The translations under genes were made by a program, and so were the position numbers. A model generated the notes under the pieces. That model did no database searches and had not been told where the DNA came from. It saw only the letters and a program-made list of their open reading frames with translations. From contig JAPYSM010000005.1 in NCBI GenBank assembly GCA_029936485.1, positions 1 through 33,250 of the forward strand: a stretch of 33,250 bases of DNA, read 5' to 3'. Numbering within the stretch: position 1 is the first letter of the stretch; every line of letters begins with the position of its first letter. Below are positions 3,315 through 24,443 of this stretch, piece by piece. The DNA is from Dehalococcoidia bacterium (GTDB taxonomy: Bacteria > Chloroflexota > Dehalococcoidia > Lucifugimonadales > Lucifugimonadaceae).

Positions 3315-4481
3315 TTACCCGTTGTACGCGTGCTTTTCGGCGGCCGCTTCGTTGAGATCACAGCCCCAGCCGGGACCGTCCGGGATTGTCATGTAGCCAT
3401 CCTTAAGCTCGGGTACGGCGGTCGTTAGTTCGTCACGCCAGGGTGATGAATCGATATCGGTCTCCATGATCCGCACGTTCGGCACCATCGCCGTGAACTG
3501 GAGGCTCTGGAACGTCGCCAGGTGTGACGTGTAGTTGTGCGGGGCAATGTTCATCTCGTACAACTCGGCGAGGTCGGCGACTTTTTTCGCCTGGCTGAAA
3601 CCCTGCCACGGCACGTCTATCTTGACGGTGTCCATCGCCCGGAGATCGAAGAAACGCTTGTACTCACGTACTCCTAGAAGTTGCTCGCCTGTGCAGATGG
3701 GGGTGCGTGTCGACGACCTGATCTCGGCCAGCGGCTCCGGCTCAAATCGATCAAACTCCAGCCACATCAGGTTGTATGGCTCAAGCGCCCGCGCAAGCCT
3801 GATAGCGGCTTCCGTCTTGAACTCGTAGTGGATGTCGAGTGCGATACCGACTTTCGGTCCGGCGGCTTCCCTCATGACGGAGATCTGCTGGACGGCATGG
3901 TCGATCAAGTTCTGGTCGGCGTTCTGATCGAAATCGCCGGCGAACACGTCTCTCATCCTCCGGGAGGGATCGCCCGGGAAGATAATGTTTGATTTGAACG
4001 CGCTGAACCCGGCGTCGGTGGCTTCCCTTACACAGTCGGCGACATCGTCCCAGGTTCGGAGTGGTGCGACGCCCAGCTCTCCCGCCCGTTGGGCACGGTA
4101 GGACGCGAGGTGGGACCAGTACACCTTCTGGCGCTTCCTGAACGGCCCGCCGAGAAGCTCATATACGGGCTTCCCGGCCTCCTTGCCCTTGATGTCCCAG
4201 AGGGCCAACTCGATCCCGGCGATTGCCATCGATGTAGCACCACCGGACACCTGCGCCGTCTTGCGATACATGTCGAGATAGTGGCGCTCCACCGGGGCCG
4301 GGTCTTTGCCAATGAGCGTTGCGCCGATATCCTCAACCAGCCCAACCTGCCCCTTCGGGTAGGAGCCGGAGCCGAACTGGCTGTAACCAGTGATCCCGGC
4401 GTCTGTGCGTACGATGCCGAAGAGCCAGGGTCCGCCTCCACCGGTGTCTACAACTCGGGTTTCGATTGCGGTGATTTTCAT
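3315..4481 (-). CDS. Enolase-superfamily (MR/MLE-type) enzyme, paralog 5 of 5
   Basis: This 388-residue member of the mandelate racemase/muconate lactonizing group has the N-terminal capping domain (MKITAIETRVVDTGG) followed by the barrel. Expected catalytic residues are visible: FKSN (Lys163, Asn165), metal ligands Asp216 in ALDIHYEF, Glu242 in WLEFD and Glu266 in CTGEQLLG, and His315 in APHNYTSH. The K-x-N motif and D-x-H are like galactonate dehydratase, so dehydration of a sugar acid is the best guess; the substrate is unknown. It is the only one of the five with His218 (DIH), the others having Asn. It is last in transcription order, 87 bp after its neighbour. The weak ribosome site is GGAT, 9 nt before the ATG. 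Confidence 0.93.
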   Translation of the reverse strand: MKITAIETRVVDTGGGGPWLFGIVRTDAGITGYSQFGSGSYPKGQVGLVEDIGATLIGKDPAPVERHYLDMYRKTAQVSGGATSMAIAGIELALWDIKGKEAGKPVYELLGGPFRKRQKVYWSHLASYRAQRAGELGVAPLRTWDDVADCVREATDAGFSAFKSNIIFPGDPSRRMRDVFAGDFDQNADQNLIDHAVQQISVMREAAGPKVGIALDIHYEFKTEAAIRLARALEPYNLMWLEFDRFEPEPLAEIRSSTRTPICTGEQLLGVREYKRFFDLRAMDTVKIDVPWQGFSQAKKVADLAELYEMNIAPHNYTSHLATFQSLQFTAMVPNVRIMETDIDSSPWRDELTTAVPELKDGYMTIPDGPGWGCDLNEAAAEKHAYNG

Positions 4482-4518
4482 GGGGAATTATCCGTTCGTT
4501 GGGTATTGGCGAAAGGCC

Positions 4519-4546
4519 GTAGGGGCGGTCTGTTGATCGCCCCTAC
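4519..4546. repeat. GTAGGGGCG-type intergenic palindrome, copy 3
   Basis: GTAGGGGCGGTC (4519-4530), a TGTT loop, then GATCGCCCCTAC (4535-4546). The arms are 12 nt with one mismatch that would still wobble-pair. It sits in the 87-bp gap between two enolase genes, where it could act as an mRNA-stabilising or attenuating hairpin. Confidence 0.75.
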
Positions 4547-4568
4547 ACGTTTATTGAACGAGAATCGT

Positions 4569-5735
4569 CTAACCCGTATAGGCGTACTTTTTCAGGGCCA
4601 ATTCGTCCAGGTCGCAGCCCCAGCCTGGCTCCTGCGGGATGGCCATGTAGCCGTCTTTTATATCCGGGAGCACGGTCGTCAGCTCGTCACGCCACGGCGC
4701 TGCGTCCACGTCCGATTCCATGATCCTGACGTTCGATACCGAGGCGGTCAGGTTCAAGCTCTGGAAGCTGGACAGGTGTGATCCATAGTTGTGCGGGGCG
4801 ATGTTCAGGTCGTAAGTCTCGGCGAGGTCCGCCACCTTCTTGGATTGCGAGAATCCCTGCCACTGCACATCCACCTTCACCGTGTCCATTGCGTGGCGCT
4901 TGAAGTAGGGCTGGTACTGTCGCACGCCGAGGAGCTGCTCCCCTGAGCAGATCGGCGTAGTGGTCGATGCCTTAAGCTGGGCCAGCGCCTGCGGATCCTG
5001 GTTGTCGATCTCCAGCCACATCAGATCGTGTGCCTCAAGCTCGCGTGCGATGCGGATGGCGCCTTCTGTTTTGAAGTTGTAGTTGATGTCCAGCGCTATG
5101 CCGATATCAGGGCCAACGGCCGACCGCATCGCGCCGATCTGTCCTTCGACGTGATGAACCAGTTCCGTGGTCGCGTTCTGGTCGTCAGCCTGGAAGAATC
5201 CCTGGTTGATTGCGCTCGATTTTTCGCCGTGGAAGATGATGTTCGTCTTGAACGCCGTGTAGCCGCGTTCAACTGCCTCGGCTGCGCAATCAGCAACGTC
5301 TTCCAGCGTTACCAGCGGTGTGCCGCCGTAGAACTCGGCGTTACCAGCGCGATACGTCGCGAGATGGGACCAGTAGACGCGTTGCCTATCCCGGTGCGGG
5401 CCGCCAACGAGCTGGTGGACCGGCACGCCGTAGCGCTTGCCCTTGATGTCCCAGAGGGCGAGCTCGATTCCTGCAATCGCCATCGCGTTGGCGCCGCCGG
5501 ACATCGAACGTGTTTGCCGGTACATGTCCATGTAGAACTTTTCGACCGGGTCCGGGTCTTTGCCGATCAGCCAGCCGGACAGGTCTTCAATGATCCCCGG
5601 AAGGCCCTTCGATAGCTTGCCCTCACCGAACTGGCTGTATCCGGTGATGCCCTCGTCCGTCCGCACGGCGCAGAAGAGCCATGCTCCCCAACCGCCGGAC
5701 TTGACTGCAAAGGTATCGATTGCGGTGATCTTCAT
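4569..5735 (-). CDS. Enolase-superfamily (MR/MLE-type) enzyme, paralog 4 of 5
   Basis: This 388-residue protein aligns without gaps to its downstream neighbour at 3315. Catalytic positions: FKTN (Lys163, Asn165), Asp216 in ALDINYNF, Glu242 in WLEIDNQ, Glu266 in CSGEQLLG, and His315 in APHNYGSH. It has Asn218 where the last paralog has His. The conserved block FKTEGAIRIARELE follows the first metal ligand, and AMDTVKVDVQWQGFSQSKK precedes the His315 loop; both blocks are close to invariant among the five. Divalent-metal-dependent proton abstraction from a carboxylate substrate is the family chemistry; the specific acid is not predictable here. The ATG at 5735 has GGACAA about 6 nt upstream. 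Confidence 0.93.
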   Translation of the reverse strand: MKITAIDTFAVKSGGWGAWLFCAVRTDEGITGYSQFGEGKLSKGLPGIIEDLSGWLIGKDPDPVEKFYMDMYRQTRSMSGGANAMAIAGIELALWDIKGKRYGVPVHQLVGGPHRDRQRVYWSHLATYRAGNAEFYGGTPLVTLEDVADCAAEAVERGYTAFKTNIIFHGEKSSAINQGFFQADDQNATTELVHHVEGQIGAMRSAVGPDIGIALDINYNFKTEGAIRIARELEAHDLMWLEIDNQDPQALAQLKASTTTPICSGEQLLGVRQYQPYFKRHAMDTVKVDVQWQGFSQSKKVADLAETYDLNIAPHNYGSHLSSFQSLNLTASVSNVRIMESDVDAAPWRDELTTVLPDIKDGYMAIPQEPGWGCDLDELALKKYAYTG

Positions 5736-5762
5736 GTGATGTTGTCCAATTGGAGGTTGGTA

Positions 5763-5821
5763 GTAGGGGCGTATGGCAATACAACCTCTTGCGTGTCAAC
5801 CATGGGCGTATTGCCATACGC
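5763..5821. repeat. GTAGGGGCG-type long inverted repeat, copy 4
   Basis: GCGTATGGCAATAC (5769-5782) and GTATTGCCATACGC (5808-5821) are perfect 14-bp inverted arms separated by 25 nt. The left arm is preceded by GTAGGG, making it a variant of the family at 4519. It occupies most of the gap between two enolase genes and ends 8 nt from the 3' end of the upstream one. Confidence 0.75.
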
Positions 5822-5829
5822 GTCTTTGT

Positions 5830-6996
5830 CTAACCCTTGAATTCGTACTTCTTCGCTGCGACTTCATCCAGCTCGGTGCCCCATCCGGGAGCCGTCGGGA
5901 TGGTCATGAAACCGTCTTTGATTTCCGGGACGTTTGTGGTGATTTCGTCGCGCCACGGCGCTGAGTCCACGTCCGATTCCATGATGCGCACGTTGGATAC
6001 AGCGGCAGTCAGGTTCAGGCTCTGGAACGAGGACAGGTGTGAGTTGTAGTTGTGCGGAGCGATGTTCATCTCGTACACCTCCGCCAGCTCTGCGACCTTC
6101 TTAGCTTGAGAGAAGCCCTGCCACTGCACATCCACCTTGACGGTGTCCATGGCGTGCTTCCGGAAGTAGGGCTGGTACTGGCGCAAGCCAAGAAGCTGCT
6201 CGCCTGTTGTGATCGGAGTGCGCTGCTGCATCTTGAGCTGCAGAAGAGCGTCCGGGTCCTGGTTGTCAATCTCCATCCAGTACAACTCGTACTCTTCAAG
6301 CGCCCGGCCGATAGCTATCGCGCCCTCTGTTTTGAAGTTGTAGTTGATGTCCAGGAGGATATCGATGTCCGGCCCAACAGCCTCGCGCATCGCACCGATC
6401 TGCCTCTTGGTGTGCCTGACAAGGTCGGTCGGGGCGTTCTGGTCGTTAGACCCCGCAAACATGTTGCCGATCATCGACGGGTTCTCACCAGGGAAGATGA
6501 TATTGGTCTTGAACGCCGTGTAACCGGCGTCCACGGCCTCTCGCGCGCAGTCGGCCAAGTCATCCATAGTGCGCAGCGGCGGCGTGCCCATCTCTGCGGA
6601 TCGACGTGTCCTGTAGGTGGCTAGGTGTGACCAGTAGACGCGCTGCTTCTCGCGGAACGGGCCGCCAACAAGGCTGTACACCGGTACTCCGTGGTATTTG
6701 CCCTTGATGTCCCAGAGCGCCAGCTCGATACCGGCCATCGCCATCGCGGTCGCCCCACCGGTCTCGGCGCGCCTGTGGCGGTACATGTCCATAAAGATCT
6801 TGTCGACCGGAAGCGGGTCCGTCCCGATAAGGCTTCGGCTCAGGTCTTCTATCAGCGCCGGGAGACCACGGTAAAGTGCGCCCTGTCCGTACTCGCCGTA
6901 TCCCGTGATACCGGCGTCCGTCCGGATGGCGCAGAACAACCACGGGCCGCGACCACCGCTGTCGACAAGGAAGTTCTCGATTGCTGTGATTTTCAT
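5830..6996 (-). CDS. Enolase-superfamily (MR/MLE-type) enzyme, paralog 3 of 5
   Basis: The protein has 388 residues, again gap-free against the two downstream paralogs. Visible active-site residues are Lys163/Asn165 (FKTN), Asp216 (LLDINYNF), Glu242 (WMEIDNQ), Glu266 (TTGEQLLG) and His315 (APHNYNSH). The segment QLKMQQRTPITTG replaces the usual QLKxSTxT of the siblings, and the capping-domain loop (about 38-46, QGALYRGLP) also differs, which is where MR-type enzymes usually read their substrate. The ribosome site GGACAAACACAA-ATG matches the spacing at the neighbouring paralog. It starts 45 bp after the preceding gene in the cluster. Confidence 0.93.
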   Translation of the reverse strand: MKITAIENFLVDSGGRGPWLFCAIRTDAGITGYGEYGQGALYRGLPALIEDLSRSLIGTDPLPVDKIFMDMYRHRRAETGGATAMAMAGIELALWDIKGKYHGVPVYSLVGGPFREKQRVYWSHLATYRTRRSAEMGTPPLRTMDDLADCAREAVDAGYTAFKTNIIFPGENPSMIGNMFAGSNDQNAPTDLVRHTKRQIGAMREAVGPDIDILLDINYNFKTEGAIAIGRALEEYELYWMEIDNQDPDALLQLKMQQRTPITTGEQLLGLRQYQPYFRKHAMDTVKVDVQWQGFSQAKKVAELAEVYEMNIAPHNYNSHLSSFQSLNLTAAVSNVRIMESDVDSAPWRDEITTNVPEIKDGFMTIPTAPGWGTELDEVAAKKYEFKG

Positions 6997-22404: not shown

Positions 22405-22463
22405 CTTTCGATGTCGTTACGAATTGCTGACGATGATATTTATCTTAATTGACGGAGTTAAGA

Positions 22464-22757
22464 ATGCGAATCGAAGAAGCCGATCTAAATACGCTGAAGA
22501 CGGCTCAACGCCGCGGACGAGTTCGCTCGCCCGAGACGCAAGAGCTGATCGAAGCGATTGATTCGCTGGTTCCAGGCGCTGCTAAGTCGGTAGTGGTTGA
22601 GCCGGGACAGACCTCGCAGAAAGTCCGGGCCAGCGTAATGTATGCCGGGAAGGCGGCCGGGAAGAAACTCCAGGCTGCTATCTCCGGGAACAAAGTGCTG
22701 TTCGCTCTCAAAGAAGAGAAACGACGACCGGGGCGCCCGCGCAAGAACCCTGTTTGA
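22464..22757 (+). CDS. Small basic protein with C-terminal AT-hook-like motif
   Basis: This 97-residue protein begins MRIEEADLNTLKTAQRRGRV and ends KEEKRRPGRPRKNPV. The final RPGRPRK is an AT-hook-like minor-groove binding motif, and the middle (KVRASVMYAGKAAGKKLQAAISGNKVLFALKEE) is basic and predicted to be mixed helix and strand. A DNA-binding or nucleoid-associated role is inferred; no named family is recognised. GGAG lies 6 nt before the ATG. The gene is an isolated transcription unit with its own strong promoter and a terminator, suggesting high expression. Confidence 0.75.
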   Translation: MRIEEADLNTLKTAQRRGRVRSPETQELIEAIDSLVPGAAKSVVVEPGQTSQKVRASVMYAGKAAGKKLQAAISGNKVLFALKEEKRRPGRPRKNPV

Positions 22758-22775
22758 TCTTTGATCTGGTGATAC

Positions 22776-22807
22776 AAAAAGGGGAGCGCAATGCGCTCCC
22801 CTTTTTT
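22776..22807. terminator. Bidirectional Rho-independent terminator
   Basis: GGGGAGCGC (22781-22789), loop AAT, GCGCTCCCC (22793-22801) and then TTTTTT; AAAAA precedes the left arm, so the reverse strand also has a U-run. It separates the convergent small basic protein gene and the redoxin gene. Confidence 0.93.
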
Positions 22808-22827
22808 GTACCGGCCTATACAAGTTG

Positions 22828-23331
22828 TTATTTATTCTGCCTCGACAACATCATTCTTCGATTGATTCGGTAATTGACTCCATTGATGGCCTCTTTTACC
22901 GCCATTCGACCAATGGGACCGGATGCGTACATTGAAGCATAAACGGTTCCACCCCGGCTGATTAGGAACTCCATTGGCTGAATGAAATGACCGTGCTCGT
23001 TATTCCCGTGCCAGGCATCAAACCTCGTTACTTGAGCCTCAGTAACGCCGTACGCTATCGGCATCGTAAGTCCCAACTCACCGGCCATATCGACGGTGGT
23101 ATCCCTGTCGTCGGACGTCGCAGCGATTACGGTAACTTCAAGTTCAGTTAGTTCATCCTTTTTCGCTTCATAGCTGGCTAACTGCCGACGACAGTACGGT
23201 CACCAGTTACCGCGATAAAAGAGAAGCGCCACGTACCTCGTCGGCATTTCGTCCGGCAATGTGATCGATCGGCCATCAATCAGATTGAATGTGATCTGCG
23301 GAAGTTTGTCGCCCTGTACAAGCTTGGCCAT
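22828..23331 (-). CDS. Redoxin (peroxiredoxin-like) selenoprotein with in-frame UGA as Sec44
   Basis: One uninterrupted frame runs from the ATG at 23331 to TAA at 22828 except for a single TGA at 23202-23200. The 167-residue product begins MAKLVQGDKLPQITFNLIDG and continues LPDEMPTRYVALLFYRGNW, then UGA, then PYCRRQLASYEAKKDELTELEV and VIAATSDDRDTTVDMAGELG. In the AhpC/TSA-type redoxin family this site reads FYRGxWCPxC, so the UGA replaces the peroxidatic or first CxxC cysteine and leaves the second Cys47. Homology continues on both sides, arguing against a pseudogene. The likely function is thiol-dependent reduction of peroxides or disulfides in the cytoplasm. The gene lies 38 bp after the old yellow enzyme gene on the same strand. 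selA, selB and selC must exist elsewhere for decoding. Confidence 0.85.
23173..23189 (-). promoter_or_regulatory. Candidate bacterial SECIS hairpin downstream of the UGA
   Basis: On the mRNA, 10 nt after the UGA, GUCGGC-AGUUA-GCCAGC can fold with five pairs (one G-U) and one C-A mismatch. The loop holds the GU pair characteristic of SelB binding, about 17 nt after UGA as in E. coli fdhF. An alternative stem, ACUGUC-GUC-GGCAGU (23195-23181), competes with it. Bacterial SECIS elements vary, so this is suggestive only. Confidence 0.4.
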
Positions 23332-23369
23332 GTAGTTATATCGCCTTTCCCGTGGGACACACGGTCCGG

Positions 23370-24443
23370 TTAGAACCCTGGCTTTGATCGGGCGTACTGA
23401 TCCGGCCACTCCACGTCGTCGCCAAGTTCTATCGCGGCGTGTAGCGGCCAGTATGGATTGCGCAAGAGTTCCCGCGCCAGGAAGATCACGTCCGCCTTGC
23501 CGGAAGTAAGCACCTCTTCTGCCTGCGCCGATTCCGTGATCAAGCCCACTGCGCCTGAAGGCACCCCTGCGCCAGAGCGGACGGCATCGGCGAACGGTAC
23601 CTGATAGCCTGGCCGGAGCGTCATCTGCTGATGGGGCGAAACTCCTCCGGAGGAGCAATCGACCAGATCAACCCCGTGCCTTTTCAAAGACTTCGAGAAC
23701 TGGACCGCGTCGGGCACGTCCCAACCACTGCCTTCGACCCAATCCGTGGATGAGATGCGGACTAGAAGCGGGAGGTTCTCCGGCCACACTTCGCGTACTG
23801 CGTCTACGATCCTCAACGGGAAGCGTGCACGATTTTCGGCGCTGCCGCCGTACGAGTCTTCGCGATGGTTCGAAAGCGGTGATAGAAACGTGTGAGCAAG
23901 ATAGCCGTGTGCGAAGTGCAGTTCTACGACCTTAAACCCGGCGTCGAGGCTGCGTTGCGCTGCGTCGCGCCAGTCATCAACGAGGGCATCGATATCTGAT
24001 TCGCTCAGTTCGTCCGGCGTCGCCCAACCCTCGTCAAACGGTACCGGTGAAGCGCCGACCGGCTGCCATCCACCGTCCTCGGCACCTACCAGACCGCTGC
24101 CGCGCCACGGCGCTTCACGTGAGGCCTTGCGACCGGCGTGGGCGAGCTGTACGCACGGAACCGAGCCATTCTCGGAGATGAAATTCGTGATCGGCTTCCA
24201 GGCTTCGGCCTGTTCGTCGTTCCAAATACCAGCGTCCGACGGACTGATACGTCCCTCCGGATTTACCGCAGCCGCTTCGGTCATCACCATCCCGGCGCCC
24301 CCAACGGCCCGGGTTCCAAGGTGGACCATGTGCCACTGATTCGGCATGCCGTCCTCGCACGAGTACTGGCACATAGGCGCGACGAAGAGCCGATTCGGGA
24401 ACTCTACGTCCCGCAATTTGTATGACGAAAAGAGCTGACTGAT
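23370..24443 (-). CDS. Old yellow enzyme, YqjM-type NADH:flavin oxidoreductase
   Basis: This FMN-dependent ene-reductase-type barrel has PMCQYS (regulatory Cys25 and Tyr27), QLAHAGRKA (99-107), LHFAHGYLAHTFLSPLSNHR with substrate-binding His176 and His179 and Tyr181, and late DVIFLARELLRNPYWPLHAA for FMN phosphate binding. The first usual start is a TTG at 24416, which deletes the start of the first strand. The frame continues upstream as SQLFSSYKLRDVEFPNR, matching the family start (LFTPITIKDMTLKNR in YqjM). The codon where Met belongs is ATC (24443), 7 nt after AAGGA. I therefore extend to 24443 (357 residues). It reduces activated C=C bonds, with unknown native substrate, and is followed by the redoxin gene. 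Confidence 0.9.
   Translation of the reverse strand: MSQLFSSYKLRDVEFPNRLFVAPMCQYSCEDGMPNQWHMVHLGTRAVGGAGMVMTEAAAVNPEGRISPSDAGIWNDEQAEAWKPITNFISENGSVPCVQLAHAGRKASREAPWRGSGLVGAEDGGWQPVGASPVPFDEGWATPDELSESDIDALVDDWRDAAQRSLDAGFKVVELHFAHGYLAHTFLSPLSNHREDSYGGSAENRARFPLRIVDAVREVWPENLPLLVRISSTDWVEGSGWDVPDAVQFSKSLKRHGVDLVDCSSGGVSPHQQMTLRPGYQVPFADAVRSGAGVPSGAVGLITESAQAEEVLTSGKADVIFLARELLRNPYWPLHAAIELGDDVEWPDQYARSKPGF

Follow-up and report, generated by a model that had tools for sequence, protein, structure and literature searches.

A Prx-like UxxC selenoprotein gene predicted in a Dehalococcoidia order, with a conserved hairpin after its UGA

Known Prx-like selenoproteins and the gene of the window

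Selenoproteins that combine a PF00578 (AhpC/TSA) domain with a UxxC motif, the Prx-like thiol:disulfide oxidoreductases ('Prx-like 1' of the GOS survey), form a published family whose genes carry an in-frame UGA followed at once by a hairpin (PMC1088965; PMC2398784 Table 2; PMC13188914 Table 1). The gene described here has the PF00578 domain, the motif (U44-P-Y-C47) and a predicted hairpin in the same place. Since the published family fits, the gene is a new member of a family already known, and the sequence-only reading was correct in calling UxxC an established selenoprotein pattern. What sets its branch apart is a signature of its own, FYRGxWUPYCxRQLA, and its occurrence in a Chloroflexota order. 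Chloroflexota are not mentioned in the 2026 selenoprotein review (PMC13188914), and our literature search on selenocysteine in SAR202 or Dehalococcoidia gave no report of this family. The Sec peroxiredoxins (TxxU) and PrxU have the overall fold in common with the present protein, but in them Sec replaces the peroxidatic Cys, whereas here Sec lies three residues earlier and the Cys is kept. The SelL-related redox proteins (NF040769) share the redoxin domain, with a weak profile match of 26.5 bits against a curated cut-off of 120 bits. SelL itself is a UxxU protein.

The window, namely the whole stretch of 33,250 nucleotides analysed, carries the gene at 22828-23331 on the minus strand (167 codons plus TAA). 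These coordinates had been given correctly from the sequence, and the strand, then left unstated, is minus: the minus-strand translation reads MAKLVQGDKLPQITFNLIDGRSITLPDEMPTRYVALLFYRGNW-U-PYCRRQLASYEAKK...RRMMLSRQNK, 167 residues from an initial M to the terminal stop TAA. A plus-strand reading of the same interval was rejected, as its translation is meaningless and contains no frame. As had been claimed, a single TGA interrupts the frame in the context FYRGNW-U-PYCRRQ. It is codon 44 (23200-23202, minus strand), and the frame goes on in the same phase for 123 sense codons and the TAA; one in-frame stop or fewer is found in 0.1% of base-shuffled versions of the gene. The codon of Cys47, the partner cysteine of U-P-Y-C, lies at 23191-23193 (minus strand), and this residue is invariant in 56 aligned relatives. 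The proposed homology on both sides of the TGA is borne out by the PF00578 match to the joined protein (64.4 bits, cut-off 26), which spans residues 7-131. The mechanical list of open reading frames breaks the gene at the TGA into a 152-codon frame up to this codon and a separate 86-codon piece 3' of it, so ordinary gene calling would split the gene into two short proteins, as foreseen. Inspection of the sequence 12 nt 5' of the ATG suggests a weak, possible ribosome-binding site, GGGAAAGG (23344-23351, minus strand).

Several features of the surroundings were also observed. Directly upstream on the same strand, a gene for an NADH:flavin oxidoreductase (23370-24416; PF00724, 235 bits) is separated from the start codon of the selenoprotein gene by a gap of 38 nt, and the two are possibly co-transcribed. 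On the other side, AAAAAGGGGAGCGCAATGCGCTCCCCTTTTTT at 22775-22808, between the convergent genes at 22449-22757 (plus strand) and the selenoprotein gene, resembles a terminator that would serve the two of them. Elsewhere in the window, three tandem open reading frames of exactly 388 codons each occupy 3315-6996 on the minus strand (3315-4481, 4569-5735 and 5830-6996), and are perhaps a gene family expanded in place.

Predicted fold and redox couple

The AlphaFold2 model, built with 56 relatives in the alignment, has a mean pLDDT of 95.7 and a pTM of 0.91. The closest solved folds are those of peroxiredoxins, with Bcp4 of Sulfolobus (3hjp) first (Foldseek E 1e-12; VIA Z 21.8, rmsd 2.1 over 156 residues), and we are confident in the peroxiredoxin-like fold predicted for the protein. 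In the model, residue 44 opens the first long helix, which follows the third strand; redox-active residues of this fold usually lie there. The gene would hence encode a 167-residue Prx-like protein of the thioredoxin fold with a U-x-x-C active site, in which Sec44 and Cys47 would act together as a selenenylsulfide/selenol-thiol couple, with Sec as the attacking residue, in thiol-disulfide exchange or peroxide reduction. Between these two reactions of the same couple, we lean towards a Sec-assisted thiol:disulfide oxidoreductase, with peroxide reduction as the chief alternative.

The selenoprotein could also work as a peroxiredoxin, with Cys47 as the peroxidatic residue and Sec44 as its resolving partner, and we regard this as the less probable but a serious possibility. 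The proximity of the fold to Bcp4 speaks for it, as does the alignment to the peroxiredoxin 6q5v, which matches Cys47 with the peroxidatic Cys and residue 44 with its Thr; furthermore, Cys47 is invariant, and a Ser paralogue described below keeps S-x-x-C. The PxxxT/SxxC active site of peroxiredoxins is nevertheless absent from the aligned segment RGNWUPYC, where Arg stands for Pro and Sec for Thr. Moreover, U/C-x-x-C is a motif of thiol-disulfide exchange, and Sec is normally the attacking residue.

Relatives, hairpin and decoding machinery

A homologue at E <= 1e-15 was found in 104 of the 247 genomes sampled of the same order, including all seven of the same genus. About a hundred homologues were fetched, their aligned codon was inspected, and removal of duplicates left 102 non-redundant relatives. 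The codon aligned to codon 44 is TGA in 98 of them, TGC (Cys) in three and TCA (Ser) in one, with no other stop before this site in any. With the window gene itself excluded, the identity of the TGA forms to its protein ranges from 75% down to 34%. The gene thus shows the pattern used to recognize bacterial selenoproteins, an in-frame UGA that is kept at a single codon position and has Cys in its place in other homologues, and the Cys predicted at the aligned site by the sequence-only reading is present in the three TGC forms. That reading had also reasoned that other residues in sister genomes would mark the TGA as a sporadic mutation. In all the sister genomes, the gene is present and has its TGA at this codon; the sister with Ser has it in an extra tandem copy, in which the G of the SECIS loop is lost too, and the neighbouring copy keeps the TGA.

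In the maximum-likelihood tree, the three Cys forms make up one clade nested among the Sec forms, and the Ser form stands beside the window gene; the rows of the window's genus are mosaic, so the inner branching of that genus is unsure. The simplest reading is that Sec is the old state of the group and was replaced once by Cys and once by Ser. One of the Cys-form genomes (G042, 91% complete) has neither a selB over the cut-off nor a tRNA-Sec match, and the remaining two retain selB. The near relatives with names are the Dehalococcoidia MAGs ANT-39 (apparently G119) and Arabian10_MAG_17 (apparently G218).

Selection acts on the hairpin after the UGA. Synonymous codon agreement in the 98 UGA genes was measured against that expected from the remainder of the gene, and its excess is highest at codons +5, +6 and +8, counted from the UGA. 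Codon +5 is CGG in 81 of 98 genes, codon +6 is CAG in all 97 Gln codons, as against a share of one third for CAA elsewhere, and GCC is favoured at +8. In between, the Leu at +7 is encoded by TTR (TTG or TTA) in 91 of 98 genes, compared with 17% elsewhere. Columns +29, +132 and +100 have a moderate excess and form no run. Together, codons +5 to +8 spell cGGC-AGUUR-GCC, with a 5-nt loop that has G at its second position. Synonymous constraint and covarying stem pairs are the evidence for a predicted bacterial SECIS hairpin at 23169-23193 (minus strand; nt 7-31 after the UGA). Its core in the window gene, GGC-AGUUA-GCC, occupies 23186-23176 (nt 14-24), and the loop AGUUA (23183-23179) begins 17 nt after the UGA, with 16 nt between. 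In the bSECIS model, the loop is 3-9 nt long, has a G at position 1 or 2 and lies 16-37 nt 3' of the UGA; the upper stem has 4-16 bp, and the MFE is <= -7.5 kcal/mol (PMC13188914). The loop of the window gene agrees with this model in size, position of the G and distance.

As for the stem, the frequency of pairs 13-25, 12-26 and 11-27 exceeds that in all 1000 within-amino-acid codon shuffles, in which every amino acid was kept and relatedness was left uncorrected, and pair 12-26 appears as G-C, U-A and C-G among the relatives. The window's own hairpin is weak, with 3 bp, a C-A mismatch and 2 bp (about -5 kcal/mol) in a stem with two mismatches. Its 38-nt stretch prefers another fold at -7.3, the published limit of -7.5 and an unbroken 4-bp stem are not reached, and when its 50 nt are folded alone, the conserved hairpin is not the best MFE structure. 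With the same hairpin structure, the sister G212 reaches -9.8, and a distant relative -16.4. The case for the putative element rests on comparison, not on the MFE fold of the window sequence. The hairpin motif is missing from the Cys homologues, and in the Ser copy codon +6 is CAA, by which the loop G is lost.

The genome of the window (223 contigs, 86.7% complete) contains the genes for selenocysteine decoding. selA is present in two pieces at the ends of contigs C121 and C105 (model positions 1-331 and 327-454), and selB lies on contig C108 (329 bits, cut-off 242). selD, which scores over its curated cut-off, lies on contig C122 (1497-2423) and has itself one in-frame TGA at the catalytic position (ASCAG-U-AGK), which we take to be the known Sec form of SelD. 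An Rfam search of this genome returned no tRNA-Sec with a UCA anticodon, only Ser, Tyr, Leu and other tRNAs. In the sister G212, ARAGORN calls a tRNA-SeC (tca), and this selC is identical to contig C110 of the window's genome (1-45) over 45 of 45 nt; the contig breaks off within selC, beyond the anticodon TCA. The absence of selC was rejected on finding this first half at the contig edge, and tRNA-Sec is present in seven of seven genomes of the genus. The genome thus holds selA, selB, selC (its first 45 nt only) and selD, as is characteristic of bacteria with selenoproteins. The Sec decoding that had been proposed for the lineage is upheld, and missing selB or selC, named beforehand as an argument against it, is answered by the selB found and by the 5' half of selC at a contig end.

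Across the order, selB was detected in 208 of the 247 genomes. Six genomes with the UGA gene have no selB over the cut-off; selB pieces occur in two of these (G071 and G110), and tRNA-Sec-family matches over the Rfam cut-off in five, at 62-66 bits in G071, G225 and G110 and at 53-56 bits in G120 and G214, where they could be Ser tRNAs. G199 has neither a selB piece nor such a match. Because most of the six have one or the other, the gaps in selB look mostly like incomplete assembly.

We are highly confident that the gene encodes a 167-residue Prx-like UxxC selenoprotein, with UGA 44 decoded as Sec via SelA, SelB, SelC and SelD and the downstream hairpin. The insertion of Sec is what we infer from sequence comparison; the hairpin in the coding sequence directly 3' of the UGA, with its core GGC-AGUUA-GCC, would direct the decoding. 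It is very improbable that the UGA is read by another route, through a reassigned codon, a suppressor tRNA or insertion of Cys. The aligned Cys of the three non-UGA relatives would suit the last of these, but TGA terminates 9 of the 23 main open reading frames of the window and therefore is not reassigned as a sense codon, the Sec system is present, the constraint 3' of the UGA has the form expected of a SECIS hairpin, and the Cys-form genome G042 is the one with neither selB over the cut-off nor a tRNA-Sec match. Still more improbable is a pseudogene, an ordinary Cys redoxin interrupted by a nonsense mutation or a sequencing error. The Ser of one close relative might be cited for it, but it is opposed by the recurrence of this TGA in an otherwise intact frame in 98 genes across the order, by the codon-level constraint right after the TGA and by the Sec genes of the genome.

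Tandem copies, a second selenoprotein and implications

The genome G119 has two tandem copies of the gene, copy A with TGA and copy B with TCA and a TTG start. Copy B (G119:C43:48453-48950), beside its UGA sister and with the SECIS loop G lost, encodes an S-x-x-C that resembles the peroxiredoxin motif. The upstream flank and the first ~180 nt of the window gene are ~94% identical to copy A, and the 60 nt with the UGA and hairpin equal copy A at 58 of 60 positions. Beyond nt ~180, through the end of the gene and past it, the identity is ~90% to copy B and only ~60% to copy A; on the basis of 60-nt window identities, the 3' part of the gene (22828-23150, minus strand) is related to copy B. The sister G212 has the same A-to-B pattern, with the switch near nt 360. 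The simplest explanation is a recombination loss of the stretch between the copies, twice; the events may also have followed another order, since A and B themselves resemble each other (~88%) over the first 180 nt. The window gene is probably a recombinant of the tandem paralogues A (Sec) and B (Sec to Ser), and the window species and G212 would have fused them independently at different points, both retaining the UGA and SECIS from A joined to a tail from B. If so, the independent fusions amount to an experiment by nature on how much Sec is worth at codon 44.

The genome also has one open frame (G000:C65:5416-6348, plus strand) that encodes a pair of redoxin domains in tandem. Each domain has its own UGA, in the contexts FYRGYF-U-GIC and FFRAWW-U-GSC, and the product looks as if it begins with a lipoprotein signal. 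Throughout the genus the two UGAs are conserved: in six genomes the match is a single stretch that contains two TGA codons, and in G132 and G222 it is divided into two stretches, each having one TGA. A hairpin-like CAGCUC-loop-GAGCUG lies 3' of many of these UGAs. By its sequence, this double-redoxin protein is a predicted second selenoprotein of the genome.

To conclude, our work adds a well-supported, broadly conserved selenoprotein group to a Chloroflexota (Dehalococcoidia) order, a lineage unmentioned in the selenoprotein reviews examined, and ordinary gene calling splits such UGA redoxin genes. With close Sec, Cys and Ser versions, and a hairpin whose gain or loss tracks the residue, the group lends itself well to studying what a redoxin gains from Sec.
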